Positions 47,149 through 61,735 of a stretch of 64,000 nucleotides of DNA are shown one piece after another; within the stretch, counting starts at the first letter, position 1; the number at the start of each line of letters is the position of its first letter. Source of the stretch: Kaistia soli DSM 19436 (GTDB lineage Bacteria > Pseudomonadota > Alphaproteobacteria > Rhizobiales > Kaistiaceae); NCBI RefSeq assembly GCF_900129325.1, contig NZ_FQUP01000004.1:248001-312000 (forward strand), read 5' to 3'. The position numbers and the translations under genes were made by a program. The notes under the pieces were generated by a model. The model was not told the DNA's origin. It made no database searches and saw only the letters and a list, made by a program, of their open reading frames with translations.

Positions 47149-47336
47149 AAGGCGTTCCTCCCTCGCTGTGTGCATTGAAGGAGAATGACCGAAGCCGCGT
47201 GCGGTTCCTTATTCCATATCAATCATTCGCGCCCGCTACATGCCGGATCACCCGGTGCAAGGCCCAACGCTCTGGACCATCGGCGGGCCCTGTGTTGACT
47301 GGGGAGGGCCGTGATTCGGATCGGGGGCGACACGAC

Positions 47337-49331
47337 ATGCGAGCGACAAAGCGCTTGACGCAGCTTGGCGCCGCTGTTGCGGCGCTTCTGGGCCTATCAC
47401 CACCTGACATGGCGTCGGCGCAATCACAGTGGGATGCGACGATCTCCAATACGAACTGGTATGTCCCGGTGCCGCAACTGCTGGCCTATGGGTCCTCCAG
47501 TACCAGCTTCGCGAACCCCATCCCGCTGGGTGACCAGACCTTGTGGACACTTGGAACGGCCACCAATGGCGCCTTCACCGGCGCGTCGTCGGCGCAGCTG
47601 TCTCTGGGAAAAGCAATCACCACCTCGAGTCTGGCGATGTCCGGGCAAGTCGCGCCAGACGGGTCCGTCGTCATCGTATTCAGCAACCCTGACGGCTCGG
47701 ACCCCGTCGTCGGTCTCGGCCAGATGAAGACGGTCGACGGCGAGCCGGCAATGCTCATGCAGATGATTACCGGGTCGGAACTGCTGGTCTCGCACTGGGC
47801 CTATATGCTGACTTACGACCCCGCGACATTCACGCCGCCTGCCCCACAGGCCATACCGGTCACTTTGTCGTCGTTCCAGTGGACGTGGACGGCAGGAACG
47901 CCCTGGCGGATTGTGGATCCCGCGCTTTTCGGGAGTAAAGCGCCGGGAACCTTCGTCATCACCAACTACACCAACGGCTATTTCTGGGGCAAAGGCATCG
48001 GCCCCGATGGCGATGCCGGTGTGACCTACACCCTGCTCGGCTCCATCACCCCGGATGGCAAGGTGCTGTACAACACGCTTCTCGATGGCAATCTCTCGAG
48101 CCTCTATGGCGACATCGAGGGTGACGCCTCAGCCGCCGAAATGATCCTGTCCGGCTATGGCGTCAACGGCGTGGATGCGATCCCATCCGCCTTCCTGTCG
48201 CTCGTTCGGCCCTATGCCGACACGGTGGCGGCAGCCGGCCTTACCGCGGCTGTGCCCGCCGCCCGGACGCTGTATGAGGTCGCGGGAACCGAGGCCGGCC
48301 TCACCGGCCCGCTGTCGCCGGCCATCCTCACGCTTAACGATCTCTCCGGCGCAGCTCTGGTCGCGGCCGTCGGCGAAACACTGCCCGTGCTTGCCGGTGC
48401 CGGCCCGCGCATCACCGCCGACAACCAGCGCATGCTGCAGCAGATCATCGCCGACCGGCTCGGCGGGATCGCCGGCGGCGCGGGGGATACGGCGCGCATG
48501 GGATCGTGGAATGCGTGGCTGCGTCCGCTTGGAGGCGGGCTCGCCCAATCAGGCCGCGACGGCGTTCCGGGCTACAGTGCGAGCACCGGCGGTGTGGCGA
48601 TTGGATTCGATAAGTCTGTCGCCGCAGGCGTCTCGCTCGGCTCGGCCTTCGCCTATTCGCGTTCCAACGCTTCCGGCGACGCGGTCGATGCACCCGGCAG
48701 TCTCTCCATCGACAGCTACGTGTTCGGCCTCTATGGCAGCATGGCGCTGACGCCGTCGCTCGGTCTCGACCTGCAATTGAACGCCGGCATCAACGACAAC
48801 AGCGCCACCCGCGCCATCAGCTTCATGGGCAGCACGGCCTCAGCCGATTATTCGGGATACACGTTCGAGGCCGGCATGCGGCTGAAGCAGCGCATCGACC
48901 TGTCGCCAAAGCTCGTCGTGACGCCCGCCCTCACCGCCAGCTATCTCCATGTCGCCGATGATGCCTATTCCGAGACAGGTGCGGACGGCCTCAACCTCCA
49001 CGTTGCCTATCAAGCCTATGATGAGCTGCCCGTCGGGGCGGAGGTCGCACTAAGCTATGCGATCGCAACTGACATAGCGATCAACGCACATGGCGGCCTG
49101 ACCTATAACCCGCTCGATACGGGGACGGCGATCACCGCGAGCTACGAAGGCGGAGGCGACGCCTTCTTGACCGAGGGCGACGATGTCTCGCGCTGGCTCA
49201 TTTCCGCAGGCCTCGGGCTCGTCGGCCAGCCACGACCGGGATCGAGCCTCGGTCTCTACTATGACATGCAGGCCAGCCCGACCGGCTTTCTCAGCCAGGC
49301 CGGCTCGGTGGCGCTGCAGTTGAGCTTCTAG
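47337..49331 (+). CDS. Autotransporter-type outer-membrane beta-barrel protein
   Basis: A 664-residue protein with a signal peptide (MRATKRLTQLGAAVAALLGL then SPPDMASAQ) and a C-terminal autotransporter barrel of about 260 residues that ends in the aromatic residue of LQLSF. The barrel starts near GSWNAWLRPLGGGLAQSG and shows alternating strands with GFDKSVAAGVSLGSAFAYSR. The passenger of about 370 residues is a beta-rich domain with no repeats (TPWRIVDPALFGSKAPGTFV, TNGYFWGKGIG), rather like a calycin or lipocalin fold; I do not recognise its ligand. The helical linker (about residues 300-380) leads to the barrel. Upstream open frame was ignored since no ribosome site was seen. Confidence 0.85.
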   Translation: MRATKRLTQLGAAVAALLGLSPPDMASAQSQWDATISNTNWYVPVPQLLAYGSSSTSFANPIPLGDQTLWTLGTATNGAFTGASSAQLSLGKAITTSSLAMSGQVAPDGSVVIVFSNPDGSDPVVGLGQMKTVDGEPAMLMQMITGSELLVSHWAYMLTYDPATFTPPAPQAIPVTLSSFQWTWTAGTPWRIVDPALFGSKAPGTFVITNYTNGYFWGKGIGPDGDAGVTYTLLGSITPDGKVLYNTLLDGNLSSLYGDIEGDASAAEMILSGYGVNGVDAIPSAFLSLVRPYADTVAAAGLTAAVPAARTLYEVAGTEAGLTGPLSPAILTLNDLSGAALVAAVGETLPVLAGAGPRITADNQRMLQQIIADRLGGIAGGAGDTARMGSWNAWLRPLGGGLAQSGRDGVPGYSASTGGVAIGFDKSVAAGVSLGSAFAYSRSNASGDAVDAPGSLSIDSYVFGLYGSMALTPSLGLDLQLNAGINDNSATRAISFMGSTASADYSGYTFEAGMRLKQRIDLSPKLVVTPALTASYLHVADDAYSETGADGLNLHVAYQAYDELPVGAEVALSYAIATDIAINAHGGLTYNPLDTGTAITASYEGGGDAFLTEGDDVSRWLISAGLGLVGQPRPGSSLGLYYDMQASPTGFLSQAGSVALQLSF

Positions 49332-51079
49332 GATCGTCTCAGGCGCGGCTCGCCTGGCACGTCGATGCGGTGCGGCGGGTGCAGCAGGATGCCGCCCGAC
49401 GTATCGCGGCCGATCTCGTGGATATAGAAATAAGTGGGCTCTTCGTCGGTGGCGTTCATGACCGGCGACGGCGCCGAAACCACGACGAGGCCGCCGCTTC
49501 GGCCGATCCAGTCGATATGGCGATGTCCGTGCATCGCAATGGCGGTTCGCGATATTCCCTGCAGCCGTCGCGTGAACCACGAGCCATTGACCAGCGCCGT
49601 ACCAATCCGCTCCGACAGCGCCTTGGCAGCACGCGGATATTCGACGACATGATGGTGCAGCGCCACGATCCAGATCGCGTCCGGCGTCTCGGCGACGAGC
49701 CGCGCCATGGCGGCTTCCTGCTCGCGAGGCACGAAGCCGAGCGCGTTGGTGAAGGAGAAATGCGTCTCGGCGTTTGAATTCAGCATCAGGACGCCGAGCC
49801 CGCCCGTTGCCTCGGGCGGCAGCACCATCGGAAAAGCGGCTGCGAAGACGCTGCCGAGCTTCGCGCCGAGCCGCAGGGTGCCGGTGTCGGCGAAGGTTGC
49901 GATCTCCGAGGCATGAGGCGCAAGCGCTGCGGAGAGCGTCTGCCCGCGCATCCCCGTTGCAGTATCGACGACATGCACCCGGTCCCCCTGCAGCGCATCG
50001 AGCGCCGCCAGCAGCCGCATCTGGCGCAGCCGCTTGTTCGGGCTCATCGGCAGATCGAGACGTGCCGGGTTCGCGCGGTCGACAACATTCAGATCATGAT
50101 TGCCAGGAATGCCGACCATCTTCCCGGCGAGTTCGGGGAATGCCGCGATAGCGTCGAAGAACTCCGCCCATTCGGCAGCGCGGCCCGCATCGGTCAGGTC
50201 GCCGCTGATCAGGATGAGATCGAGGCCCTCGGCCTTGTCGAACGCGTCGAGCGCGACGAGAAGCTGCGTCAGCCGGCCATTGCCGCGCGGGCCGGAGCGG
50301 CCGCTCTCGATGCGGAAGCCGTAGCGCTCACCGACGATATGGATGTCTGAAAGATGGGCGACGCGCCAGGTCCGGCCGCCTGGAACCTTGGGGGCGAAGG
50401 CGCCGAGATCACGCGGCTGGTCCATGGTCGCGTCCGCGACACCCCAGACGAGCGCCGCAACGGCCACATAGCAGCCGATGAGCACGATACAGTTGAAGAG
50501 CCCCGCCAATGCCAGACGGCCCGGCTCGGCAAGATCGCCGAGCGTTCCCGTCCAATGGGTATGCGGAAGGGCGAGCACGACGAACAGCATCGAGAGCCCG
50601 CAGACGAGCAACCCCGCCGCCGCGGCCGAGACGGCGCGAATGCGGTCGCGCCGGTCATCGCTCGTTGTCTCGGGCAGGTTGCGCTCGGCCAAATGGCGCA
50701 GCCCCTCGCGGGCAAGGGCATAGCCGGGCTGTACGGCCAGCGCGTTCAGCGACCAGAAATTCGCTTCGACGAGACGCAGGAATGGCCGGCCGCCGAACCA
50801 TGCGGCCGCCACAAGCGCGGCCGCCACCACGAGTGGGATCAGGCCGTTGAAGAGGCGCTCCGCCGACGTCGAGGCGGCGCTGACCCAGATCGAGACCATC
50901 AGCGGTCCCAGCCCCAGCACGATCACCGGCAGCGCGACGAGGCTGACCCAGGCCGCGATGAGCTTCGGCAGGCTGATCTCGGCGAGCAGGCTGCCGGCCA
51001 GCGATGTCAGCGTGCGCCGCTTGGTGCTGGAGGCATCGTCCTCGATATCGCCACGGCGGGGGTCGAGGATCGGGAACAC
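49328..51079 (-). CDS. Membrane-anchored calcineurin-like metallophosphoesterase
   Basis: The 583-residue protein has an N-terminal half with four to six hydrophobic helices and a C-terminal metallophosphoesterase domain. Metal motifs in order are AHLSDIHIVG (Asp-x-His), ISGDLTDAG (Gly-Asp), GIPGNHDLN (Gly-Asn-His-Asp), ALHHHVVEY and MHGHRHIDW. Such proteins hydrolyse phosphodiesters or lipid-linked phosphates. The GTG at 51079 is chosen because GGAG stands seven bases before it; a TTG at 51112 has no such site. Its stop shares CTAG with the stop of the convergent autotransporter gene. Confidence 0.88.
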   Translation of the reverse strand: MFPILDPRRGDIEDDASSTKRRTLTSLAGSLLAEISLPKLIAAWVSLVALPVIVLGLGPLMVSIWVSAASTSAERLFNGLIPLVVAAALVAAAWFGGRPFLRLVEANFWSLNALAVQPGYALAREGLRHLAERNLPETTSDDRRDRIRAVSAAAAGLLVCGLSMLFVVLALPHTHWTGTLGDLAEPGRLALAGLFNCIVLIGCYVAVAALVWGVADATMDQPRDLGAFAPKVPGGRTWRVAHLSDIHIVGERYGFRIESGRSGPRGNGRLTQLLVALDAFDKAEGLDLILISGDLTDAGRAAEWAEFFDAIAAFPELAGKMVGIPGNHDLNVVDRANPARLDLPMSPNKRLRQMRLLAALDALQGDRVHVVDTATGMRGQTLSAALAPHASEIATFADTGTLRLGAKLGSVFAAAFPMVLPPEATGGLGVLMLNSNAETHFSFTNALGFVPREQEAAMARLVAETPDAIWIVALHHHVVEYPRAAKALSERIGTALVNGSWFTRRLQGISRTAIAMHGHRHIDWIGRSGGLVVVSAPSPVMNATDEEPTYFYIHEIGRDTSGGILLHPPHRIDVPGEPRLRRS

Positions 51080-51177
51080 GCGATGACTCCGGCTGGTCGA
51101 GAACGCCGACAATCAGCTGGCAGGCGCGCCGAAGCAAGGGGTGCACCGGCGCGGATAGCGCCGATGCACTGTCGATA

Positions 51178-53298
51178 TCAGGCAAGGGCCGAGATGCGGA
51201 CCGTGTTGCTGGAGAGCGCCCCCTCATGCACGAGAAGGCCGATGCCGCCGTCGTGCAACGCCTCGGGGCTTTCGTCCGCGGCTGTCAGGCTGGTGTCGCC
51301 GATCCGGCAGCGCAGCGTCGTGCCGTCGGCCTCGACTTCCATGTCGTAGAGCGTTTCGAGCGTCCAATCGAAGGGCATTTCGGCGAGGACCGTGCGCGTC
51401 TCATCGCGCTGGCGGACGAGGCGGAGCTTGCCGTCGCGGGACAGCAGCGCCGCATAATAGCGCCGCAAGCCTTGCACCCGAACCGCGACGCCGGCCTCGT
51501 TGCCGAGATGGACCATCGCATCGGCCGCGACCTTGTAGTCCGTCCATTCGCGCGTGCCATGGATGATGATGCCTTCGCCGCGGTCCTGCGACAGGCGGAA
51601 GGATTGCGGGAAGCGCTTCGAGAAGAAACTCGCCCCATTGACCCAGGCCATGCGCCAGAAGTCGCTCGGCTCGTCCGGCCGGCGCAGTTGCAGCTCTGGC
51701 GTGCCGCCATAGCGCACATGATCGACAAGCACGGCGCCATCGGCCCGGCTGCCCTCGGCGCGGATGACGAAGCCGATCTCGGCGATCGGCTGGCCGCCGA
51801 AATCGGGCAGCACCCAGTCGAGGTGGCCCTCGGCACCGGGCGCGAGGCGGATGGTCGGCCCGTCGACGGTCTGGAGTACATCTTCGGCGCCATAGACCTT
51901 GAGACGGAAGCCGACATCGACGGCGCCTAGATTGCCGGCATCAGTGGCGACGGCCGCCTGCAGCTTCTGGCCCGGATAGACGAGCGGCGTCGCCATCAAT
52001 TCGTAGGTGCGCATGGCAAGCACCTCGGGCGGCGAGAAGGTCGGCGTCGTCGCGGCGGCGATCTGGCCGGGCCCGAGACCGCGATAGGCGATGGCGAGCG
52101 CACGGCCGCCCGGCACCACGCGGTTCTCGAGCTCTGTCCGCTCGGCGAGGCCGTGGCCACGCTCTGGCCGGAAGCCCTGCACGCTACCCGGCAGCGAGAA
52201 GTGGAACTGCGCGCCGCCTTTCGGCGCCGCGGGCGCCTTGGAGCCGGCAAGGCTGTGCCCGAGCGCTGCCAGCCGGTAGCTGGTCCGCACCGCATCGTTG
52301 ATGGCATTGCCGCCATCGGCCGAGGAGATCAGCAGCCGGTCGGCAACCGGCCCGCGCCAGTCGGGACCGGCATCGATGCCCTCAAGGCCGAGCTTGATGC
52401 CGAGCAGGCAGCCGACATTGCCGGCATTGCAGTCGGTGTCCCAGCCTGACGTATTGACGATCATCTGGGCGCGCTGGAAATCGTCGGGCGCGTAGAGGAT
52501 CGCCATGATCATCAGCGCATGGTTGGGCACGACATGGCAGTTGCCCGGATATTTGTCATAGCCGTAATGGTCCTCGATCTTCTGCCGCGTGTCGCGCCAG
52601 TCCGGGAATTCTTTGTGCCAGCCGCGGATGTCGGCGATCAGCTTCGCAATCAGGCAATCCGCCGGGATGGCCGCGAGGCCGGTTTCGATGAGATGCTCGA
52701 TATCGCCTGAGACGAAGGCCTCGGCTTCCATCGCGGCCCAGAGCATCGCGGCATAAACGGATTCTCCGTCATGGCTGACAAGGCCCGCCTGCTCGGCGAG
52801 CTTCGCCGCAAGCTTCGGCTGGCCCGGCGCCACCATCGCCCAGCCGTCGATGAAGATCTGCGCGCCGATCTGCTCCGCGACCGTCGATCCATTGACCGCG
52901 ATCGAGCCGGAGGCCGGCGCGGGAACGCCGCGCTTCAGATTCAGCCATGCGGTGTGCTCGGTCGAATTGCCGTTGCCGCCCCACCACAGCACCGTCCGCT
53001 GCTCGACGAGATAATTAAGCCAGGCGCGACCGATATCCTCGGCCGAGAGATCTTCCGAGATGCCGTAATCCTCAAGCGCGCGCACGAAGGTGAAGGTGCC
53101 GGCGACATCGTCATCGGTGACGACGAGCGGCACGCCGAGACGGTCATGAACGTAATAGTCGACCTCGCCGAGCTCGCTCATGATCTTCTGGTAAGTCCAG
53201 CCCTCGAAGGGGCGGCCGACATAGACGCCGATCAGCTTTCCGAGCACGCCGGCATAGACGCGTTCGAGATAATCGTTCGGAAGGGGGGCGTTGCTCAT
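51178..53298 (-). CDS. ADP-ribosylglycohydrolase-fold enzyme with C-terminal beta-sandwich
   Basis: The 706-residue protein has an N-terminal ADP-ribosylglycohydrolase domain (about residues 8-350). Both metal-binding motifs are intact: VVTDDDVAGT (Thr61-Asp62-Asp63-Asp64) and NTSGWDTDCNAGNVGCLLG near residue 300. Residues about 420-706 form beta-rich sheets (WTDYKVAADAMVHLGNEAGV, DMEVEADGTTLRC) like concanavalin-type carbohydrate-binding domains. The family cleaves N- or O-glycosidic bonds to ribose in ADP-ribosyl or nucleoside-like compounds. No signal peptide. It ends a LacI-controlled importer operon, divergent from a PfkB sugar kinase, which points to use of an imported N-glycoside. The ATG at 53298 starts the domain. 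Confidence 0.85.
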   Translation of the reverse strand: MSNAPLPNDYLERVYAGVLGKLIGVYVGRPFEGWTYQKIMSELGEVDYYVHDRLGVPLVVTDDDVAGTFTFVRALEDYGISEDLSAEDIGRAWLNYLVEQRTVLWWGGNGNSTEHTAWLNLKRGVPAPASGSIAVNGSTVAEQIGAQIFIDGWAMVAPGQPKLAAKLAEQAGLVSHDGESVYAAMLWAAMEAEAFVSGDIEHLIETGLAAIPADCLIAKLIADIRGWHKEFPDWRDTRQKIEDHYGYDKYPGNCHVVPNHALMIMAILYAPDDFQRAQMIVNTSGWDTDCNAGNVGCLLGIKLGLEGIDAGPDWRGPVADRLLISSADGGNAINDAVRTSYRLAALGHSLAGSKAPAAPKGGAQFHFSLPGSVQGFRPERGHGLAERTELENRVVPGGRALAIAYRGLGPGQIAAATTPTFSPPEVLAMRTYELMATPLVYPGQKLQAAVATDAGNLGAVDVGFRLKVYGAEDVLQTVDGPTIRLAPGAEGHLDWVLPDFGGQPIAEIGFVIRAEGSRADGAVLVDHVRYGGTPELQLRRPDEPSDFWRMAWVNGASFFSKRFPQSFRLSQDRGEGIIIHGTREWTDYKVAADAMVHLGNEAGVAVRVQGLRRYYAALLSRDGKLRLVRQRDETRTVLAEMPFDWTLETLYDMEVEADGTTLRCRIGDTSLTAADESPEALHDGGIGLLVHEGALSSNTVRISALA

Positions 53299-53348
53299 GA
53301 TGGACCCTTGGTTCCTCGGGATTTTCTTCGGATTTGGCGGGGCGCGGC

Positions 53349-54182
53349 TCAGCCCTTGACCGAGCCGCCGGCCATGCCCTCGATGAAGCGGCGCTGCAGG
53401 AAGACGAAAAGGACGACGATCGGCAGCACGATGATCAGCGCCGCGGCCATGATCTCCCCCCAGTCGGACGAGTACTGGCCGGAGAGCAGGAAGAACGAGA
53501 CGACGGCGGTCAGCTTGTCCTGCCGTTGCAGGAAGGTCGTGGCGATCAGGAACTCGTTCCACGAATAGAGACCGATGATCAGCGCCACGGTCAGGATGCC
53601 CGGCGAGACGATCGGCAGCATCACCCGCGTGAACACCTGCCACGACGAGGCGCCGTCGATGATCGCGGCTTCCTCGATCTCTTTCGGCACGGCAAGGAAA
53701 TAGGTTCGAAGCAGCATGATCGCGAAGGGCGAGTAGATCGCCGTGTAGACAAGCGAAACGGCGAAGACGTTGTTGATCAGGCCGAGCTTGGCGAAACCGA
53801 AATAAAGCGGAAACAGGAAGAGCTGGATCGGCGCGGTCGTGGTCGCCAGCAGGTAGAACGTGACCACCTTCCAGGCCTTGATCTTCTTGCGCGCGAGCAC
53901 GAAAGCGGCGGCCGAACCGGTGCTGCAGACGAGGATGATCGTGAGCGCCGTCAGCATCGCCGAGTTCCAGAACGTCGTGCTGAAGCGGGCGTCCTTCCAG
54001 GCGCGGGCGAAATTGTCGAAGCGTATGACCTGCGGCAGCGCCAGCGGGTTCTGGACGATCTCCTGCGCGGATTTCAGCGAATTGAGGACGAGCAACACGA
54101 TCGGGAACAGCGCCGTGAACAGGCCGATGCCGAGCACGACATAGGTGATCGTCAGCGTGGCGCGGCTTTCGACGAGCCTCAT
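53349..54182 (-). CDS. CUT1 sugar ABC transporter permease, MalG-type
   Basis: The 277-residue protein has six helices and an EAA loop (EEAAIIDGASSWQVFTRVML). It shares one base (54182) with the stop of the upstream permease gene. It ends 50 bases before the ADP-ribosylglycohydrolase-like gene. With the MalF-type partner it should pass the substrate that the enzyme then splits. No ATPase gene is present in this operon. Confidence 0.93.
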   Translation of the reverse strand: MRLVESRATLTITYVVLGIGLFTALFPIVLLVLNSLKSAQEIVQNPLALPQVIRFDNFARAWKDARFSTTFWNSAMLTALTIILVCSTGSAAAFVLARKKIKAWKVVTFYLLATTTAPIQLFLFPLYFGFAKLGLINNVFAVSLVYTAIYSPFAIMLLRTYFLAVPKEIEEAAIIDGASSWQVFTRVMLPIVSPGILTVALIIGLYSWNEFLIATTFLQRQDKLTAVVSFFLLSGQYSSDWGEIMAAALIIVLPIVVLFVFLQRRFIEGMAGGSVKG

Positions 54183-55024
54183 CAGACGCTCTCCCTCGAC
54201 TGGATGCGGATATAGAAGAACGTTGCGACAAGGCCGAACAGGCTGATCACCAGCGCCGTTGCGGCCGCCTGGCCGACATTCAGGTCATAAAAGGCCTTGC
54301 GATAGGCGAGCGTCGAAAGGACCTCGCTTGAGAAGGCCGGTCCGCCCTGCGTCAGGATGTAGACGAAGTCGAAAACGAGGAACGACCAGATGACCGTCAT
54401 GATCATCATGAGCATGATGGTCGGCCGGATGCCCGGCAGCAGCACATAACGCATCATCTGCCAGAAGCTGGCGCCCTCGATGCGCGCCGCTTCGATCTGC
54501 TCCTGCGGCACCTGGCGGAGCGCGGCGAAGAAGATCACGCAGAGGAAGCCCCACCAGTGCCAGAGATCGACGGTGGCGACGCCGAACAGCGCCGTCGAGG
54601 TCTGCGACAGCGGATTGACGATCGGCAGGCCGAGCTTCTGCAGATAGCCAAAGACACCGGTAACGGGGCTGTAGATCATGCCCTGCCAGACCCGCGCGGT
54701 GATCGCAGTCGCGATGATCACGGGCAGGAAATAGACGACCTGGAACAGCGTGGAACCGCGCCGGGGCACGACGAGCAGGAGGCTCGCCGCAAGAAGACCC
54801 ATCCCGATCGGCACGGTCAGGAAAAGCGCCGTCCAGATCAGGTTGTTCTGAAGCGCCGTCCAGAACGGCCCGTCGCTCCAGAGCGCCGCGAAATTGCCGA
54901 GGCCGATAAAGACCGGCGCCGAGATGCCGTCCCACTGGAAAAAGGCCAGGGCGACCGTCAGAAGCGCCGGGATCAGGATGATCACGACATTGATGGCGAG
55001 CGTCGGCACGAGATAGAGCCACAT
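54182..55024 (-). CDS. CUT1 sugar ABC transporter permease, MalF-type
   Basis: A 280-residue permease with six helices and an EAA-like loop (QIEAARIEGASFWQMMRYVL). The N-terminus is short (MWLYLVPTLAINVVIILIPA) and is at the first helix, so the start could lie slightly further upstream, though no better ATG was seen. It lies 145 bases after the binding-protein gene, and that gap contains two hairpins. Confidence 0.9.
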   Translation of the reverse strand: MWLYLVPTLAINVVIILIPALLTVALAFFQWDGISAPVFIGLGNFAALWSDGPFWTALQNNLIWTALFLTVPIGMGLLAASLLLVVPRRGSTLFQVVYFLPVIIATAITARVWQGMIYSPVTGVFGYLQKLGLPIVNPLSQTSTALFGVATVDLWHWWGFLCVIFFAALRQVPQEQIEAARIEGASFWQMMRYVLLPGIRPTIMLMMIMTVIWSFLVFDFVYILTQGGPAFSSEVLSTLAYRKAFYDLNVGQAAATALVISLFGLVATFFYIRIQSRESV

Positions 55025-55084
55025 GGCCGGTGTCCTTGCGGGAAGGAAGGCGTCTTGCGATGCGCGACGGGCTTCGGCCGGTCA

Positions 55085-55105
55085 TCGCCGGAATGGATCC
55101 GGCGA
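55085..55105 (-). promoter_or_regulatory. Second hairpin between binding-protein and permease genes
   Basis: Seven-base arms TCGCCGG (55085-55091) and CCGGCGA (55099-55105) around a 7-base loop. It lies between the stronger hairpin at 55134-55161 and the permease start at 55024. Confidence 0.45.
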
Positions 55106-55133
55106 CGACGTGCCAAGCGCACCGTGTCGCGAA

Positions 55134-55161
55134 GCGCCCCTCCCCGCGCGGAGAAGGGCGC
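55134..55161 (-). promoter_or_regulatory. Intercistronic hairpin after CUT1 binding-protein gene
   Basis: On the minus strand GCGCCCTTCTCC pairs with GGGGAGGGGCGC across a GCGC loop, with one bulge. It begins eight bases after the stop codon of the binding-protein gene. There is no T-run. Confidence 0.6.
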
Positions 55162-55169
55162 CCAGAACG

Positions 55170-56501
55170 TCAGCGCTTCGGAACGGCGGGCACCTTGCCG
55201 GCCGCCTTTTCTTCCTTGAAGGTCGCGTCAAGCTTCTCGAGGAACTGCGCCGTGGTGATCTTGCCGAGCCAGACCTCCTCCATGCCCGAGACGAGATAGG
55301 TGTCCGTCGCTGGCGGGAGGAACGTCCAGGTGGTGTAGCCATACTGGCCGTCGCTGACCGAGGCGGCGAGATTCTTCATCGTCTCGCCATAGAGCGGCAG
55401 GACGTCGGCGCCGATCTGCACCTTAGAAAGGTCTTTCAGCGGCGTGTTCCACTCGCCCTGCCAGACGGTGTTCATGTCGCCATAGAACTTGTCGCTGAAG
55501 ACGTAGTCGATCACCTCGGCCGCCCCGTCGGGGTTCTGCGAGGAATTGGCGATCGAGAAGGTCGAGCCGATGCCGAGCGCATAGATCGGATAAGGCACGC
55601 CCTCAGCGCTTGGGAAGCCAACAAAACCGGGCACCGCGTTGTTCTGCGGGAAGTAGCGCGGCACGTTCTGGAAGTTCCAGGTGCCCGTCGGCGCCATGCC
55701 GGCCTGCCCTGTCGCGACCTGCGCAAAGGCCTGCTCGCCGGTCAGCGAGAAGTAGTTCGGGCCGAAATAGCCCTTCTGCCACCAGTTGTTGAGCGTATCG
55801 ATCGCCTTGACGAAGGGCTCCGCCGTCCAGGGAATCTCGCCGTTCAGAGCCTTGTAGACATTCTCGGGTCCGGCGATCGAGTTGAGCACGATCGAGACAT
55901 AGTGCTCGTTGCTCGGGCGCCAGTCGGCATTGCCAGCCGCGAAGGGAACGAGGCCTTTCGCCTTCATTGCGTCGGCGAGCGTTTCGAGCTCGGCGATCGT
56001 CTTCGGCGGCTGCCAGCCATTCTTCTCGAACAGCGTCTTGTTGTAGAAGAGGCCAAGCGTCTCGTAGGTCTTCGGCAGCGCGTAAAGCTTGCCGTTATAT
56101 TTGCCGAGCTCCAGGAACACCGGCAGGACGCGGTCGTTCCAGCCGAGCTTCGCCGCATAGTCGTCGAGCGGCAGCAACTGGCCGGCCTGCGCCATCGAGG
56201 CGACATAGCTTGGACCTGCCGTATAGACGACATCCGGCCCGGAACCCGAGAGCATCGCGATGCGGAGCTGCTTGTCGAGCTCGGCGCCGCGGAAATCGAT
56301 CGAGAGGCTCTCGCCCGGATGCGCCGCATTGAACGGCTCGACCAGCAGCTTTTGCAGCGCCTCCTGGTTTTCCGGTGCGGCGGTCTCATACCACCACGTG
56401 ATCGGCTTCTTTTCCTCGGCCATGGCAGCGGTGACACTGGCCGATGCGCCGAGAGCAACCAGCGCGGCGCCTGCCAGAGCGATTTTTGCTCGATAACCCA
56501 T
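55170..56501 (-). CDS. CUT1 extracellular sugar-binding protein
   Basis: A 443-residue family 1 solute-binding protein with a signal peptide (MGYRAKIALAGAALVALGAS then ASVTAAMAEE). Landmarks are ITWWYETAAPENQEALQKLL, LGLFYNKTLFEKNGWQPPKT and AGMAPTGTWNFQNVP. It follows the LacI gene by 34 bases, so it is probably made from the LacI promoter or a weak one between. It is the receptor for the importer whose operon includes the ADP-ribosylglycohydrolase-like enzyme. Confidence 0.93.
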   Translation of the reverse strand: MGYRAKIALAGAALVALGASASVTAAMAEEKKPITWWYETAAPENQEALQKLLVEPFNAAHPGESLSIDFRGAELDKQLRIAMLSGSGPDVVYTAGPSYVASMAQAGQLLPLDDYAAKLGWNDRVLPVFLELGKYNGKLYALPKTYETLGLFYNKTLFEKNGWQPPKTIAELETLADAMKAKGLVPFAAGNADWRPSNEHYVSIVLNSIAGPENVYKALNGEIPWTAEPFVKAIDTLNNWWQKGYFGPNYFSLTGEQAFAQVATGQAGMAPTGTWNFQNVPRYFPQNNAVPGFVGFPSAEGVPYPIYALGIGSTFSIANSSQNPDGAAEVIDYVFSDKFYGDMNTVWQGEWNTPLKDLSKVQIGADVLPLYGETMKNLAASVSDGQYGYTTWTFLPPATDTYLVSGMEEVWLGKITTAQFLEKLDATFKEEKAAGKVPAVPKR

Positions 56502-56535
56502 TATTTTCCTCCTCCCGTTGGTTCAGCTCGATCGA

Positions 56536-57552
56536 TCAGGTTGAACTGCGCTCGATCAGACGGAACGGCATTGCCTGGCTCGTTCCGGGTCCCGCATTGC
56601 CGCGCTGGAGCCGATCGAGCAGGACCCCGGCCGCCGTCGTGCCGAGGTCGTGTTGAAACTGCGAAATGGTCGTGAGCGCCGGCGTCACCAGCCGCGCAGC
56701 GAAGATGTCGTCGAAGCCGGCGATCGCAACGTCGCCGGGAACGGCAAGCCCGGCCTCGCGCGCTGCCGCCATGGCGCCGATCGCCATCATGTCGTTGGCC
56801 GCGAAGATGGCATCGGGCCGCGCGGACAGCGCGAACAATTGCTGGGCGGCGCGAAAGCCGCCCTCTTCGTTGAAGGCTTCGTCGGCCACGATCAGAGGCT
56901 TGCGGCCGGCTTCGAGAAGCGCTGCCTCATAGCCGTTGAGACGGCCTTCCTGCGGGCCGCCAAGGCCGGCGATCATGGCGATGCGGCGATAGCCGCGCCG
57001 GATCAGATAGCGCGTGACCTCGCCTGCAGCCGCCTCGTTGTCGATATAGAGATTGTCGACCGGCAGCGGACCGACCTTCTTCTTCGACGATTCGATCCTG
57101 ACCACGCCGATCCCAGCATCGGTCAGCGGCTGGAAATCGGCGACGCGCAGCGTGAAGAACACCCCGACGACCCCATCGACGCGGCCTTCGAGGCTCCAGT
57201 TGAGGAAGCGCTGCTCGCGCTCGGCGGCGCCGTCGGTATTGATCGTGATTACATCATAGCCGGCGTGATCGGCGGCTGACTGCATGCCGCGCAACAGCGA
57301 GGGATAGAACGGGTTGGCAATATCCGGAACGACACAGGCGAGCGTCATCGTCTTGTTGGTCTTGAGCGCGCGTGCCCACCGGTTCGGCACATACCCAAGC
57401 TCGCGCATCGCTGCCTGCACGCGCTCCAGCGTCTCCGCTGGAATCTGGCTCGTCGGCGCGCCGGAAAGAACCAGCGAAACCGTGGTCTGCGACACGCTCG
57501 CCAAGCGCGCGACATCGCGCTGCGTGACCCTGCGAGGCCGTTCGACAGTCAT
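56536..57552 (-). CDS. LacI family transcriptional regulator
   Basis: The 338-residue regulator has a LacI HTH (VTQRDVARLASVSQTTVSLV, residues 9-28), the hinge helix, and a periplasmic-binding-like ligand domain (LACVVPDIANPFYPSLLRGM, GFDDIFAARLVTPALTTISQ). The ATG at 57552 follows AGGAAA; longer frames add an unneeded lead. It is the first gene of the importer/ADP-ribosylglycohydrolase operon. Tandem TGATACGTA sequences just upstream, each with a central CG typical of LacI operators, indicate autoregulation and joint control of the divergent PfkB operon. Confidence 0.93.
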   Translation of the reverse strand: MTVERPRRVTQRDVARLASVSQTTVSLVLSGAPTSQIPAETLERVQAAMRELGYVPNRWARALKTNKTMTLACVVPDIANPFYPSLLRGMQSAADHAGYDVITINTDGAAEREQRFLNWSLEGRVDGVVGVFFTLRVADFQPLTDAGIGVVRIESSKKKVGPLPVDNLYIDNEAAAGEVTRYLIRRGYRRIAMIAGLGGPQEGRLNGYEAALLEAGRKPLIVADEAFNEEGGFRAAQQLFALSARPDAIFAANDMMAIGAMAAAREAGLAVPGDVAIAGFDDIFAARLVTPALTTISQFQHDLGTTAAGVLLDRLQRGNAGPGTSQAMPFRLIERSST

Positions 57553-57565
57553 GCCGGGAGTTTCC

Positions 57566-57605
57566 TGATACGTATTACTGATACGTACCTCTAGCTGATA
57601 CCTCT
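57566..57605. promoter_or_regulatory. Tandem LacI-type operators in the divergent region
   Basis: TGATACGTATTA (57566-57577) and TGATACGTACCT (57579-57590) are two near-palindromic copies with a central CG, 13 bases apart. A third partial copy, TGATACCTCT, lies at 57596-57605. They lie 14-53 bases upstream of the LacI start. Confidence 0.6.
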
Positions 57606-57656
57606 CCGGTTGGCAACGTCTCCGATGCTCGTCCACAGGGCACCCAAGTCAGGCGC

Positions 57657-57687
57657 TTGGCGAAGGCGATGCAGCGCGCGCTATAGT
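57657..57687 (+). promoter_or_regulatory. Weak sigma-70 promoter for the PfkB operon
   Basis: TTGGCG (57657-57662) and TATAGT (57682-57687) are separated by 19 bases, longer than ideal. The start codon of the kinase gene lies 30 bases downstream. Confidence 0.35.
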
Positions 57688-57717
57688 CGTCCGGTCAAAA
57701 ACGAAGCGGAGCCCTTC

Positions 57718-58617
57718 ATGCGCGTTCTCGTCCTCGGCGCGGTCATGATCGACGAAGCCATGACGGTTGCGACCTTCCCGAACCCCGGCGCCACGGTCAT
57801 CGCCGGCGCCCCGCAGCGCGACCTCGGCGGCAAGGGCGCCAACCAGGCGATCGTGCTGAAGCGTGCCGCGGTCGATGTCCGCCTGGTCGCGCCGGTCGGC
57901 GAGGACGCCGATGCGGAATGGGTAGCCGAGGCGCTGACCTCCGAAGGTATCGAGGTGGCGGACCTCGTTCCGCTCGGCCGGTCGACGGATCGATCGCTGA
58001 TCTTCGTTGGCCCCGGCGGCGAGAACGCGATCGCCTCCATCATCGGCGCCGCCGAAGCGGTCGATGAACGGCTGGCGCGCGAAAGCGTGGACTTGCTCGG
58101 CCCGGGCGACCTTCTGGTCATGCAGGGCAATCTGACGCTCGATGCAACCCGGGCCGCGCTGGACGCCGCACGCGCTCAGGGCGCGGCGACGCTGCTCAAC
58201 CCCTCGCCGATCCGCGCCGAGATGGCGGCGCTGTTTCCGCTGGTCGACTGCCTCATCGTCAATGAGGGCGAAGCACGGCTCCTCAGCGGCAAGGACACGC
58301 CACTCGAGGCCGCCATCGAACTGCGCGAAGACGGCCCCGGAACGGTCGTCGTCACGCTCGGCCGTCTCGGCGCCCTGGCGCTCGGCGACGACGGTCCGGT
58401 CGAGATCGCAGGCGAACCGGTGAAGGCGGTCGACAGCACCGGCGCCGGCGACACCTTCGCTGCCGTCTTTGCCGCCGCGCGCTATGACCGTGGCCTTTCG
58501 CTTGGCGACAGCCTCGCGGCGGCGACCCGCGCCGCGGCCATCACGGTCTCGCGCAAGGGAACGCGCGCCGCATTTCCGACGCGCGATGAACTAGCCGCGA
58601 TCCTGCCGGGACGATGA
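57718..58617 (+). CDS. PfkB family sugar kinase (ribokinase-like)
   Basis: A 299-residue PfkB kinase. The first signature, GGKGANQAIVLKRA (from residue 37), and the second, DSTGAGDTFAAVFAAARYDR (near residue 240), with the catalytic Asp in GAGD, are both complete. It resembles ribokinase more than fructokinases, so it probably phosphorylates ribose or a similar pentose, or a nucleoside. The ATG at 57718 follows CGGAG. It is divergent from the LacI/ADP-ribosylglycohydrolase operon and heads an operon with an AtzH-like gene and two amidases. Confidence 0.92.
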   Translation: MRVLVLGAVMIDEAMTVATFPNPGATVIAGAPQRDLGGKGANQAIVLKRAAVDVRLVAPVGEDADAEWVAEALTSEGIEVADLVPLGRSTDRSLIFVGPGGENAIASIIGAAEAVDERLARESVDLLGPGDLLVMQGNLTLDATRAALDAARAQGAATLLNPSPIRAEMAALFPLVDCLIVNEGEARLLSGKDTPLEAAIELREDGPGTVVVTLGRLGALALGDDGPVEIAGEPVKAVDSTGAGDTFAAVFAAARYDRGLSLGDSLAAATRAAAITVSRKGTRAAFPTRDELAAILPGR

Positions 58618-58725
58618 GCGGCCCTGCCGCACCTTTGCGCAGCCTGCCGCTTCAAGCGCGTTTACAGGGTGAGCCGAATACCCCGATCATGCGCGCCGAA
58701 AAGCTGTCGAGTGAGGAGTGAGAGC

Positions 58726-59127
58726 GTGGTCATCAATGATCCCGAAACCGTCGCCGAGGTGACGGAAGCCTTCGGCCGTTACGAACAGGGGTTGATCGAC
58801 GCCGATGGGCCGGCGCTCGACCACCTTTTCTGGGACAGCCCCTATACGGTCCGCTACGGCGACGGCCAGATCCAGCACGGCCATGCTCCTATCAAGGCCT
58901 TCAATGCAAAGCGCCGCAAGACAGGACCCGATCGCGCCTTGACGGAGACGATCGTCACCACCTTCGGCCGCGAATTCGCGACGGTCTCGACGCTCTATGT
59001 CGACGTTCCCCCCGGCAAGATCGGGCGCCAGCAGCAGAGCTGGGCCAAAATCGACGGCGACTGGCATGTGGTTGCGGCGCATGTCAGCGTCGTCGACCAG
59101 GTCGAGATCGAGCGGCAGCAGGCCTGA
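58726..59127 (+). CDS. AtzH-like (DUF3225, HpxZ-type) protein
   Basis: The 133-residue protein has an NTF2-like fold with the AtzH/HpxZ pattern: VAEVTEAFGRYEQGLIDADG, LDHLFWDSPYTVRYGDGQ, TIVTTFGREFATVSTLY, and the closing WHVVAAHVSVVDQ. AtzH-like proteins act in ureide or cyanuric-acid breakdown next to amidases, and HpxZ in oxalurate use. The GTG at 58726 follows GAGGAG. It precedes the first amidase gene by 11 bases. A role in processing a urea- or amide-like compound is inferred from family and neighbours. Confidence 0.88.
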   Translation: MVINDPETVAEVTEAFGRYEQGLIDADGPALDHLFWDSPYTVRYGDGQIQHGHAPIKAFNAKRRKTGPDRALTETIVTTFGREFATVSTLYVDVPPGKIGRQQQSWAKIDGDWHVVAAHVSVVDQVEIERQQA

Positions 59128-59138
59128 GGAACGAAACC

Positions 59139-60311
59139 ATGCCCATCCATGATCCCTACGGCGCCTTCGTGCCCGGAACCGATATTGTCCTGCCGGCAAC
59201 GGGCAGCGGTCTGCTCGACGGGCTGACCTTCGCCGCCAAGGACCTCTTCGACATCGCCGGCCATGTGACCGGCTGCGGCAATCCCGACTGGGCGCGAACA
59301 CATCCGCCGGCCCGCCGCTCGGCAAAGGTCGTCGAACAGCTTCTCGCCGCCGGTGCGACACTCGCCGGAAAGACCATCACCGACGAAATCTCGCTCGGCC
59401 TGCTCGGGCGCAACCAATTTGACGGCACGCCGATCAATCCGCGCGCCCGCGACCGCTTTCCAGGCGGCTCGTCGAGCGGCTCCGCCGCGGCGGTTGCCGG
59501 CGGCCTGGTCGATTTCGCGCTCGGCACCGATTCCGGTGGCTCGGTGCGCGTGCCGTCAAGCTTCTGCGGCCTCTACGGCCTCCGACCGACGCATGGCGCC
59601 ATCTCGGTCGAAGGGCTGATGATGCAGTCCGCGTCGTTCGACACGGCCGGCTTCTTCGCCGATGACGCCACGATCTTCGGAAAGGTCGGTATCGTGCTGA
59701 CGCCAGACGCAGCGCCAGCAGCGCCGATCGAGGAGATCCTGATCGCGACGGACGCCTTCGCGATCGCCGACGAGGCGGTGCGCGCGGCGATCGAGCCCGC
59801 CCTTGCGCGCCTCGGCGCCATCGCGCCTGTCCGCGAGATCACGCTGGCGCAGGAGGGCCTCAAAACCTGGAACCAGTGCCAGATCACCGCGCAATGCAGC
59901 GAGTTCTCGGCAACGTTCCGCGACTGGGTGGACGCCGTCAATCCGCGCTTTTCCTTCGAGGTCGGCGCGACGCTCGCCCATGCCGCCCTGATTTCCGACA
60001 GCGCGCGCGCTGACGCCCTGCACTTCCGCGCCGATCTCAGCGCGCGGCTGGACGCCCTGCTCGAAGGCCGCCGCGTCGTGGTCTATCCGGCGGTGCCGAT
60101 CCTGCCCCCGCATCGCGACGCGCCACTCTCGGTCATGGGCGCCGCCGGCGATCGCATTGTCGATCTGACCTGCATCGCCGGCCTCAGCGGCCTGCCCCAG
60201 GCCGGCCTGCCGCTTGGAACTGCGGGCACGATCCCTGTCGGACTCGCCGTGCTCGGCTGGCGCGGCGCCGATCGCACGCTGCTCGCCCTCGCCAAGAAGC
60301 TTGCAGCATGA
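59139..60311 (+). CDS. Amidase signature enzyme (short form)
   Basis: A 390-residue amidase-signature protein with the catalytic Lys in FAAKDLFDIAG, the cis-Ser region FPGGSSSGSAAAVAGG and the nucleophile Ser in TDSGGSVRVPSSFCG. It is shorter than most family members (450-500), lacking part of the N-terminal helices. It hydrolyses an amide or carbamoyl bond. Its stop overlaps the start of a second amidase gene by four bases, so the two may act in sequence or form a complex with the AtzH-like protein. Confidence 0.92.
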   Translation: MPIHDPYGAFVPGTDIVLPATGSGLLDGLTFAAKDLFDIAGHVTGCGNPDWARTHPPARRSAKVVEQLLAAGATLAGKTITDEISLGLLGRNQFDGTPINPRARDRFPGGSSSGSAAAVAGGLVDFALGTDSGGSVRVPSSFCGLYGLRPTHGAISVEGLMMQSASFDTAGFFADDATIFGKVGIVLTPDAAPAAPIEEILIATDAFAIADEAVRAAIEPALARLGAIAPVREITLAQEGLKTWNQCQITAQCSEFSATFRDWVDAVNPRFSFEVGATLAHAALISDSARADALHFRADLSARLDALLEGRRVVVYPAVPILPPHRDAPLSVMGAAGDRIVDLTCIAGLSGLPQAGLPLGTAGTIPVGLAVLGWRGADRTLLALAKKLAA

Positions 60312-61735
60312 CGGATGTCTCCGACGATGCCTTGAGCGGGCTCGACGCGATCGGGATCGCCGAGCAGATCCGCGCCGGGGTTCTGACGCCCGACGAGGCG
60401 CTGGACGCCGCGATCGCCCGTGTCGACGCGCTCAACCCGGCGCTGAACGCCGTCGTGCACCGGCATGACGATCTTGGGCGGCGCGCCATTGCCGAGGGCC
60501 TTCCGGACGGTCCGTTTCGCGGCGTGCCGTTCCTCCTGAAGGATCTCGACCTCCGCCTCGCCGACAGCGTAACGACCAGCGGCAGCCATCTCTTCGACGG
60601 CATCGTCGCGGCGCGGGATTCGACGCTGACGGCGCGCTACAAGGCCGCCGGGCTCGTCATCTTCGGCAAGACGAATGCCGCCGAACTAGGACTGTCCTCG
60701 GCAACCGAACCGGCCGCCTTCGGCCCGACGCGGCATCCGCTCGATCCGGCGCTGTCACCGGGCGGCTCGAGCGGCGGCAGCGCTGCCGCGGTCGCCTCGG
60801 GGATGGTGACCATGGCCCATGCAACCGATGGCGCCGGCTCGATCCGCATGCCGGCATCGCTCACCGGCATCTTCGGCATGAAGCCGAGCCGGGGCCGCAC
60901 GCCACCTGGCCCAGATGCCAGCGAGATCTTCTTCGGCATGTCGGTGAACCACGCCCTCACCGTGACGGTCCGCGACAGCGCCGCTCTGCTCGACGCGACC
61001 AGTGGGCCGGAACCCGGCGCGCGGCACAGCCTCGCGGCGGATGACCTGTCCTTCCTGGAGCAATCGCGCCGCGATCCGGCACCGCTGCGCATCGCGCTGA
61101 TGACGGAAGCCTTTGGCGGCGAGCCGGTCGAAGCCGCCTGCTGCGACGCCGCGATCGCGGCGGCCCATCTTGCGGCCGGGCTCGGACACCATGTCGAGGA
61201 AGCGCGGCCTTCGCTGGACGGGATCGATCCGGCGCATTGCTTCCGCCGTCTTGCCGCGGCCCTCACCCTCGTCTTCGTCGAGGATGTTGCGGCGGCGCAT
61301 GGCATCGCTGATCCCCGTTCACTGCTGGAGCCGGTGAATGTCGCCTGGATGGACGAGGCGAAGGGCCTGACGGCCGGCGACCAGATCCGCGCCATCGGCG
61401 AGATGCATGCGATGGGGCGCGCCCTCGCCCGCTTCTTCGAGCGCTATGACGTCCTGATCACGCCGGTGACTGCGACGAGCCGGCTGGCGCACGGCCATTT
61501 CAACGGGACGGAGACTGACGTCACCCGCTTTGTCGATCGCCTGACGGCCTTCGGGCCCTTCACCTTTCCGTTCAACGCCGCGGGCGCGCCGGCCATGAGC
61601 CTGCCTGTCTCACGCGTCGACGGCCTGCCGATCGGAGCCCAGTTCGCATCGGCGCTCGGCCGCGACGGGACATTGTTCGCGCTGGCGGGGCAGATCGAAC
61701 GCGCGCGGCCCTGGCATCGGCTGACGCGCAGCTGA
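60308..61735 (+). CDS. Amidase signature enzyme (long form)
   Basis: The 475-residue amidase has the usual N-terminal helices (IAEQIRAGVLTPDEALDAAI), the catalytic Lys (PFLLKDLDLR), the cis-Ser region SPGGSSGGSAAAVASGM and the nucleophile Ser in ATDGAGSIRMPASL. It resembles aryl- or aliphatic amidases and glutamyl-tRNA amidotransferase A-type folds. It is the last gene of the PfkB, AtzH-like, amidase, amidase operon. The two amidases are distant paralogues, which suggests two different amide bonds in the substrate. Confidence 0.92.
   Translation: MTDVSDDALSGLDAIGIAEQIRAGVLTPDEALDAAIARVDALNPALNAVVHRHDDLGRRAIAEGLPDGPFRGVPFLLKDLDLRLADSVTTSGSHLFDGIVAARDSTLTARYKAAGLVIFGKTNAAELGLSSATEPAAFGPTRHPLDPALSPGGSSGGSAAAVASGMVTMAHATDGAGSIRMPASLTGIFGMKPSRGRTPPGPDASEIFFGMSVNHALTVTVRDSAALLDATSGPEPGARHSLAADDLSFLEQSRRDPAPLRIALMTEAFGGEPVEAACCDAAIAAAHLAAGLGHHVEEARPSLDGIDPAHCFRRLAAALTLVFVEDVAAAHGIADPRSLLEPVNVAWMDEAKGLTAGDQIRAIGEMHAMGRALARFFERYDVLITPVTATSRLAHGHFNGTETDVTRFVDRLTAFGPFTFPFNAAGAPAMSLPVSRVDGLPIGAQFASALGRDGTLFALAGQIERARPWHRLTRS

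Follow-up and report, generated by a model that had tools for sequence, protein, structure and literature searches.

The question raised by this locus is whether its two divergent arms form a single pathway. In a 64,000-nucleotide stretch of Kaistia soli DSM 19436 (hereafter the window; contig NZ_FQUP01000004.1, positions 248,001 to 312,000), the gene for a hydrolase with an ADP-ribosylglycohydrolase (ARH) fold lies on one strand with sugar importer genes and a LacI-family regulator gene, and genes for a PfkB-family kinase, an AtzH-like protein and two amidases lie on the other. The original prediction joined all of these into one route for an imported N-glycoside. The comparison described here indicates that the locus is two separable modules placed back to back with one shared promoter region, both of them real and conserved elsewhere. 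The left set probably imports and splits a ring-sugar compound, and the genes of the right set have relatives at ureide-type loci. As expected, all of the genes were those named in the prediction when examined with Pfam and NCBIfam (Pfam matches: ADP_ribosyl_GH, two BPD_transp_1, SBP_bac_1, LacI, PfkB, AtzH-like and two Amidase), and all lie within 51178-61735, an interval that runs from the hydrolase stop codon (51178) to that of the second amidase (61735). The features are as follows.

51178..53298, minus strand: hydrolase, 706 amino acids, ARH/DraG fold plus two beta-sandwiches (Pfam, alignment, predicted structure)
53349..54182, minus strand: CUT1-type ATP-binding cassette (ABC) permease, MalG-like (Pfam, NCBIfam)
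54182..55024, minus strand: CUT1-type ABC permease, MalF/UgpA-like (Pfam, NCBIfam)
55170..56501, minus strand: extracellular solute-binding protein, SBP_bac_1 (Pfam; NCBIfam matches all below cut-off, the best being NgcE)
56536..57552, minus strand: LacI-family regulator, first gene of the left operon (Pfam)
57566-57577 (TGATACGTATTA) and 57579-57590 (TGATACGTACCT), no strand: two predicted LacI operator sites, 13 bp apart (conservation)
57718..58617, plus strand: PfkB-family sugar kinase with QGN replacing the ribokinase QLE(143) (Pfam, NCBIfam, tree alignment)
58726..59127, start provisional, plus strand: AtzH/HpxZ-like protein (Pfam, NCBIfam)
59139..60311, plus strand: amidase 1, PRK08310 type, over the NCBIfam cut-off (Pfam, NCBIfam)
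60308..61735, plus strand: amidase 2, nearest solved structure 6-aminohexanoate cyclic dimer hydrolase (Pfam, structure comparison by sequence)

The lacI gene lies 34 bp upstream of the binding protein gene and heads the minus-strand operon, while the kinase gene heads the plus-strand arm. Thus the divergence is between a lacI operon and a kinase operon. When 397 whole genomes from the order were searched, 36 gave a match and 29 of these have a near full-length hydrolase, including 8 of the 11 genomes of the window's genus; a scan of named genomes gave 69 loci, including some from Enterobacteriaceae, Chloroflexi and marine proteobacteria at 49-72% identity. Neighbours were counted as homologues within 6 kb of the hydrolase, counts which paralogues may inflate, in a set of 88 loci (104 loci, L034-L137, minus 12 duplicates, minus 5 without a long hydrolase, plus the window). 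The left operon of lacI, binding protein, two CUT1 permeases and hydrolase recurs in many Hyphomicrobiales, and the 88 loci contained the two permeases in 74 and 74 cases, lacI in 65, the binding protein in 63 and an ATPase in 60. In the window the binding protein and both permeases of the CUT1 importer are present; the stretch between 40001 and 64000 yielded no homologue of the ABC ATPase that is usual for this operon, and it is assumed that a shared ATPase elsewhere in the genome, for which no search was made, would serve the importer. The homology of the binding protein did not settle the substrate.

A palindrome with a TACGTA core was found upstream of lacI in all 62 distinct upstream stretches whose lacI is at least 40% identical to that of the window (window included), against 0.6% of 12400 random stretches from the same loci. 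It is paired at a spacing of 13 bp in 39 of the 62, and genome G371 also has the pair. In the own genome and in each of G261, G205 and G099, exact sites are confined to a single place, adjoining this lacI; G278 and G334, both of which are without a long hydrolase, have none. Pattern counting within the window alone was not significant, as 17 of 100 shuffles reach two matches, and the predicted operator is accepted because of its conservation. A scan of 57400-57900 for promoters and terminators found none. In the window 13 bp separate the operator from lacI and 127 bp separate it from the start of the kinase gene, which is the placement seen in genomes without a right arm. Co-regulation of the two arms by LacI, as first proposed, is therefore not established.

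The hydrolase matches ADP_ribosyl_GH (PF03747) over residues 17-310 with 187.4 bits (cut-off 26.2) and is assigned no family by NCBIfam. The metal motifs, already considered intact in the original prediction, read T61-D62-D63-D64 and D287-T288-D289-C290, and all 40 aligned homologues have the same residues at D62-D64 and D287-C290; the acid residues presumably bind metal as in ARH3 and DraG. The final position of the second motif is Cys 290, where E. coli YegU has Thr (GGDTDT). An AlphaFold2 model built from the 40-row alignment (pLDDT 93.3, pTM 0.94) predicted a helical ARH-type domain at about 1-363, followed by a beta-sandwich at about 376-545 and a CBM66-like beta-sandwich at about 546-706. 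The extra beta-sandwich that had been noted is thus present, but as two domains instead of one. In Foldseek comparisons the first domain matched MJ1187 (TM 0.74), DraG (0.75) and ARH3 (up to 0.73), all by target length and with 1t5j among the matches, and the last domain matched the levanase CBM66 4azz (TM 0.83 by target length, 1.9 A). The best E-value belonged to galactocerebrosidase, a match spanning both sandwiches at low TM (0.21/0.23). A single-sequence search of solved structures gave no match at E 0.01 and a profile was needed; the profile search also matched the levanase CBM66, at 1.1e-6. Only weak, scattered matches came from a Pfam scan of the C-terminal part of the 40 homologues, the best being PF21708 in 8 of 40 at 0.001. 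No secretion signal was noticed at the N-terminus when it was inspected by eye.

The neighbours of the hydrolase elsewhere suggest what it acts upon. A kinase lies beside it in 13 of the 88 loci (10 in the neighbour count plus L054-L056), so the predicted pairing of kinase with hydrolase is indeed seen in other lineages. The Chloroflexi examples of this kinase share 44-46% identity with E. coli RbsK. Deinococcus aetherius has the genes in the order LacI, two permeases, binding protein, hypothetical protein, ARH-fold protein, ribokinase and hydrolase. L054-L056 have a nucleoside hydrolase and a uridine-phosphorylase-like gene near the hydrolase, and DUF2961/GH172 genes are found in L049 and, directly adjoining the hydrolase, in L104 and L110. 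PMC8605356 and PMC10115798 describe demonstrated alpha-D-fructofuranosidase and D-arabinofuranosidase activity for GH172. The furanose ring is common to the ribokinase-like kinases, the nucleoside hydrolase and GH172, which suggests that the hydrolase is a cytosolic furanosidase. Of the earlier claim that an N-glycosidic bond is split, action on a furanoside therefore appears likely, with the linkage either N or O. L057-L062 have a short ARH-fold gene, a family III CoA-transferase and an HpcH-type lyase with the hydrolase. Two ARH-fold genes in a row, accompanied by the CoA-transferase and lyase genes within one LacI-ABC operon, were seen in L057-L062 and on a plasmid of Sinorhizobium sp. B11 (L196). 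A complete rhizobial-type operon is present under an enterobacterial name in L102 (record titled Superficieibacter sp.), either a recent transfer or a mislabelled contig, and the search listing also gave a hydrolase at 58% identity on the 518 kb Enterobacter hormaechei plasmid CP103578.1.

The right arm was examined in the same manner. The kinase scored 209.7 against the ribokinase equivalog TIGR02152, below the cut-off of 299.65, and its nearest solved structure is 3i3y (183.9 bits) with RbsK next (131.8). Where E. coli RbsK reads QLE(143) the window kinase reads QGN, so that Asn replaces Glu143, a residue which we take to contact ribose. In a tree of 26 kinases, from which those of L052, L054 and L056 were left out, the window kinase was placed with the kinases of loci containing PTE and BtpA genes (support 90/82). 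QGN is shared by the whole window group, by the stand-alone module described below and by the sampled BtpA loci (16 of 16 kinases, 12 of 12 for the BtpA loci), and Glu143 is retained in 6 of the 7 other hydrolase-adjacent kinases of the tree. Given this distance from the hydrolase-adjacent ribokinases and the loss of Glu143, the idea of a ribokinase-like enzyme for freed ribose is doubtful, and ribose is not favoured as the substrate. The AtzH-like protein scored 133 bits with Pfam AtzH-like (cut-off 27) and 130.4 with HpxZ (cut-off 135). It has a Tyr and an Arg 24 residues apart at aligned places, matched by this spacing to the catalytic residues Tyr22 and Arg46 given for AtzH in PMC6219798.

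The distribution of the right arm differs from that of the left. AtzH was found in 4 of the 88 hydrolase loci (window, G261, G205 and G099), each time beside this lacI, and both amidases in 2 (window and G261). At the hydrolase locus the kinase is missing from G261 and both amidases are missing from G205 and G099. In a further member of the genus, G278, which has no long hydrolase, kinase, AtzH, amidase and amidase stand alone (51, 73, 72 and 63% identity). In G334 AtzH and the two amidases are divergent to the lacI of a locus containing an RbsB-type ABC importer, PTE, kinase, BtpA, a TenA-like protein, dihydropyrimidinase, (S)-ureidoglycine aminohydrolase and allantoate amidohydrolase, the last three over cut-off; the same arrangement of AtzH and amidase with a ureide locus is found in G087, of another family. 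The own genome (L143, C9:81000-100999) and G261 (L142) contain a ureide-type BtpA locus without AtzH and amidases, that of L143 having the same gene content as in G334 and a dihydropyrimidinase over the TIGR02033 cut-off. A second kinase-BtpA pair lies immediately to the left of the L143 locus. PTE, BtpA, hydantoinase and the RbsB-type importer are not at the window locus itself. Among 12 BtpA loci inspected, from 41 genomes with a BtpA match, the kinase was present in 12, an RbsB-like protein in 12, PTE in 11, hydantoinase with ureidoglycine aminohydrolase in 4 and the AtzH-amidase pair in 2. Close relatives of amidase 1 occur in 8 genomes. Two of these have it by the hydrolase, two at a ureide locus and one accompanied by the kinase alone; in the other three it lies elsewhere, with no AtzH detected. 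The ureide or amide link first suggested for the right arm is supported by the loci of G334 and G087, and this kinship makes the idea better founded than it was at first.

These results are, in our judgement, best explained by two catabolic modules lying back to back, one for import and cleavage of a furanoside and one that is ureide-related, and we regard this as the probable explanation. LacI would repress the CUT1-type importer and the cytosolic hydrolase through the TACGTA-cored operator, the CBM66-like lectin domain may hold the small imported glycoside and the binuclear-metal ARH-fold domain would split its furanosyl bond (ribofuranosyl-like, N- or O-linked), with the adjoining ribokinase of other lineages presumably taking up the freed sugar. 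The right module may derive from, or work with, a ureide- or hydantoin-type pathway comprising an RbsB-type ABC importer, PTE, kinase and BtpA, to which the fullest loci add hydantoinase, ureidoglycine aminohydrolase and allantoate amidohydrolase. The substrate of its kinase would be some sugar other than plain ribose, or one not yet released from its aglycone, and a carbamoyl or amide remainder would be left for AtzH and the amidases to take apart. The data favour two modules, each pointing to sugar-linked compounds, which met in one genus, where joint action is possible.

Several observations weigh against this explanation. Some functional link is favoured by the fact that four genomes of the genus have kept AtzH and at least one further right-arm gene beside lacI, with lacI-side synteny. 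G205 and G099 have the kinase and AtzH at the hydrolase locus and nowhere else, and no ureide-type BtpA orthologue (76% class) was found in them, so the kinase may serve the left module there. The grouping of the window kinase is below the tool's starred level of support, with six forks open in the tree, and GH172 and nucleoside hydrolase each accompany the hydrolase in only 3 of 88 loci. Chito-, xylo- or malto-oligosaccharides are the ligands of the characterised families nearest to the binding protein, so that a disaccharide would suit it better than a nucleoside. Genomes with a long hydrolase and those with a BtpA match overlap in 16 cases against about 3 expected (n=397), mostly in two genera, and at genus level in 3/8 against 15/142 (p 0.04); this co-occurrence was not used as evidence, since two genera account for most of it.

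The single route of the original prediction, in which an N-glycosylated ureide or amide is imported and cleaved, the sugar is phosphorylated and AtzH and the amidases degrade the remainder, would explain why the right arm, whole or in part, adjoins lacI in those four genomes and shares the intergenic region between lacI and the kinase. The kin of the right module, with hydantoinase, ureidoglycine aminohydrolase, allantoate amidohydrolase, an RbsB-type importer and a sugar kinase, also look as expected for a glycosylated ureide. However, AtzH is absent from 84 of the 88 hydrolase loci, the right arm is only partial in three members of the genus and is complete in G278 without a long hydrolase, the operator is placed as in genomes without the right arm, and the window kinase is outside the group adjoining the hydrolase elsewhere. 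We consider the single route unlikely. A variant in which two loci of the one genome form an as yet undescribed glycosylated ureide or hydantoin pathway, with the cytosolic, lectin-bearing ARH-fold furanosidase and non-ribokinase PfkB enzyme at the sugar end and AtzH, the amidases and the hydantoinase/ureidoglycine aminohydrolase/allantoate amidohydrolase locus at the nitrogen end, appears similarly doubtful. A greater chance, still short of even, is given to the hydrolase being an O-glycosidase that acts on a furanosyl oligosaccharide (a fructo-, arabino- or ribofuranoside) lacking a nitrogenous aglycone, with the right arm unrelated. The CUT1 importer, the oligosaccharide-type binding protein, the CBM66-like domain and the DUF2961/GH172 neighbours all fit such an enzyme, and in L110 and L104 the hydrolase could fill the place of the GH32 fructosidase in the Bifidobacterium dentium GH172 locus, as that locus is described in PMC8605356. 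Against it, GH172 is confined to those 3 loci and L054-L056 carry nucleoside-type genes instead. Furthermore, to our knowledge, the ARH-fold enzymes of known activity cut ADP-ribosyl bonds. The fold and metal residues would suit a hydrolase of ARH/DraG function that strips ADP-ribose from protein or nucleotide targets and lies in a sugar operon incidentally. The position in a sugar-importer operon at most loci speaks against action on protein-linked ADP-ribose, as do the lectin-like domain and the lack of any ADP-ribosyltransferase family among those neighbours that were annotated, and we consider this very improbable.

The nearest known systems each resemble part of the locus. E. coli yegTUV combines an ARH-fold protein (YegU), a PfkB kinase (YegV) and an importer (YegT, a putative nucleoside symporter) under one regulator. 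However, the alignment of YegU with the hydrolase spans only 39 residues (28 bits), YegU is without the C-terminal sandwiches, the importer is of the major facilitator superfamily rather than ABC type and YegV is 26% identical to the window kinase. The function of yegTUV is itself given as unknown in PMC10819704. Orthology with YegU and YegV was rejected given the short alignment, the low identity and a closer pair elsewhere in the genome. This pair lies at C9:328711-332419 (L065:9712-13420), about 17 kb past the right end of the window. Its YegU-like ARH-fold gene and PfkB kinase gene stand in a row with one for adenine deaminase (over cut-off); this second ARH-kinase set is nucleoside-like and has BPD_transp_2 importer genes at a distance of about 7 kb. 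Members of the ARH/DraG family (ARH3, DraG and MJ1187) share the fold and acid residues of the catalytic domain, to which the hydrolase adds the two sandwiches, a conserved WWGG-x-GNSTEHTA and Cys for Thr at the DTD-T position. The fold predicted for its last domain resembles CBM66 of Bacillus subtilis levanase and the lectin domain of galactocerebrosidase, but here it is on a cytosolic ARH-fold enzyme and sugar binding is putative. The B. dentium locus (LacI, GH32, GH172, ABC), as described in PMC8605356, is likewise a LacI-ABC furanoside locus, but the window is without a GH172 gene. In AtzE-AtzG-AtzH and HpxXYZ an AtzH-like protein also adjoins an amidase, but amidase 1 fits PRK08310 and not AtzE (166.8 against a cut-off of 461) and the gap between AtzH and amidase 1 is too small for an AtzG gene. 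The ribose scavenging (rus) locus of Bacteroides thetaiotaomicron is reported to pair an ADP-ribosylglycohydrolase with a nucleoside hydrolase and ribokinases. No published description of the window's gene set was found in the open-licence literature, most subscription journals being outside the scope of the search.

If the two-module explanation is true then the ARH fold, known for removal of ADP-ribose, has a dedicated sugar-catabolic branch with its own lectin domain, importer and regulator, spanning Hyphomicrobiales, Enterobacteriaceae, Chloroflexi and Deinococcus. Through the right arm the comparison also leads to the PTE-kinase-BtpA locus, a further undescribed system, in which ureide enzymes beside a sugar kinase and a ribose-type importer suggest the use of glycosylated purine breakdown products as nutrients. 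Both modules yield concrete candidate substrates.

Two further genes lie to the left of the locus. A metallophosphoesterase with an N-terminal extension (49328-51112, minus strand) matched an anti-phage phosphoesterase model weakly (62 bits against a cut-off of 420), and a long open reading frame (47175-49331, plus strand) resembles an outer-membrane autotransporter when judged by eye.

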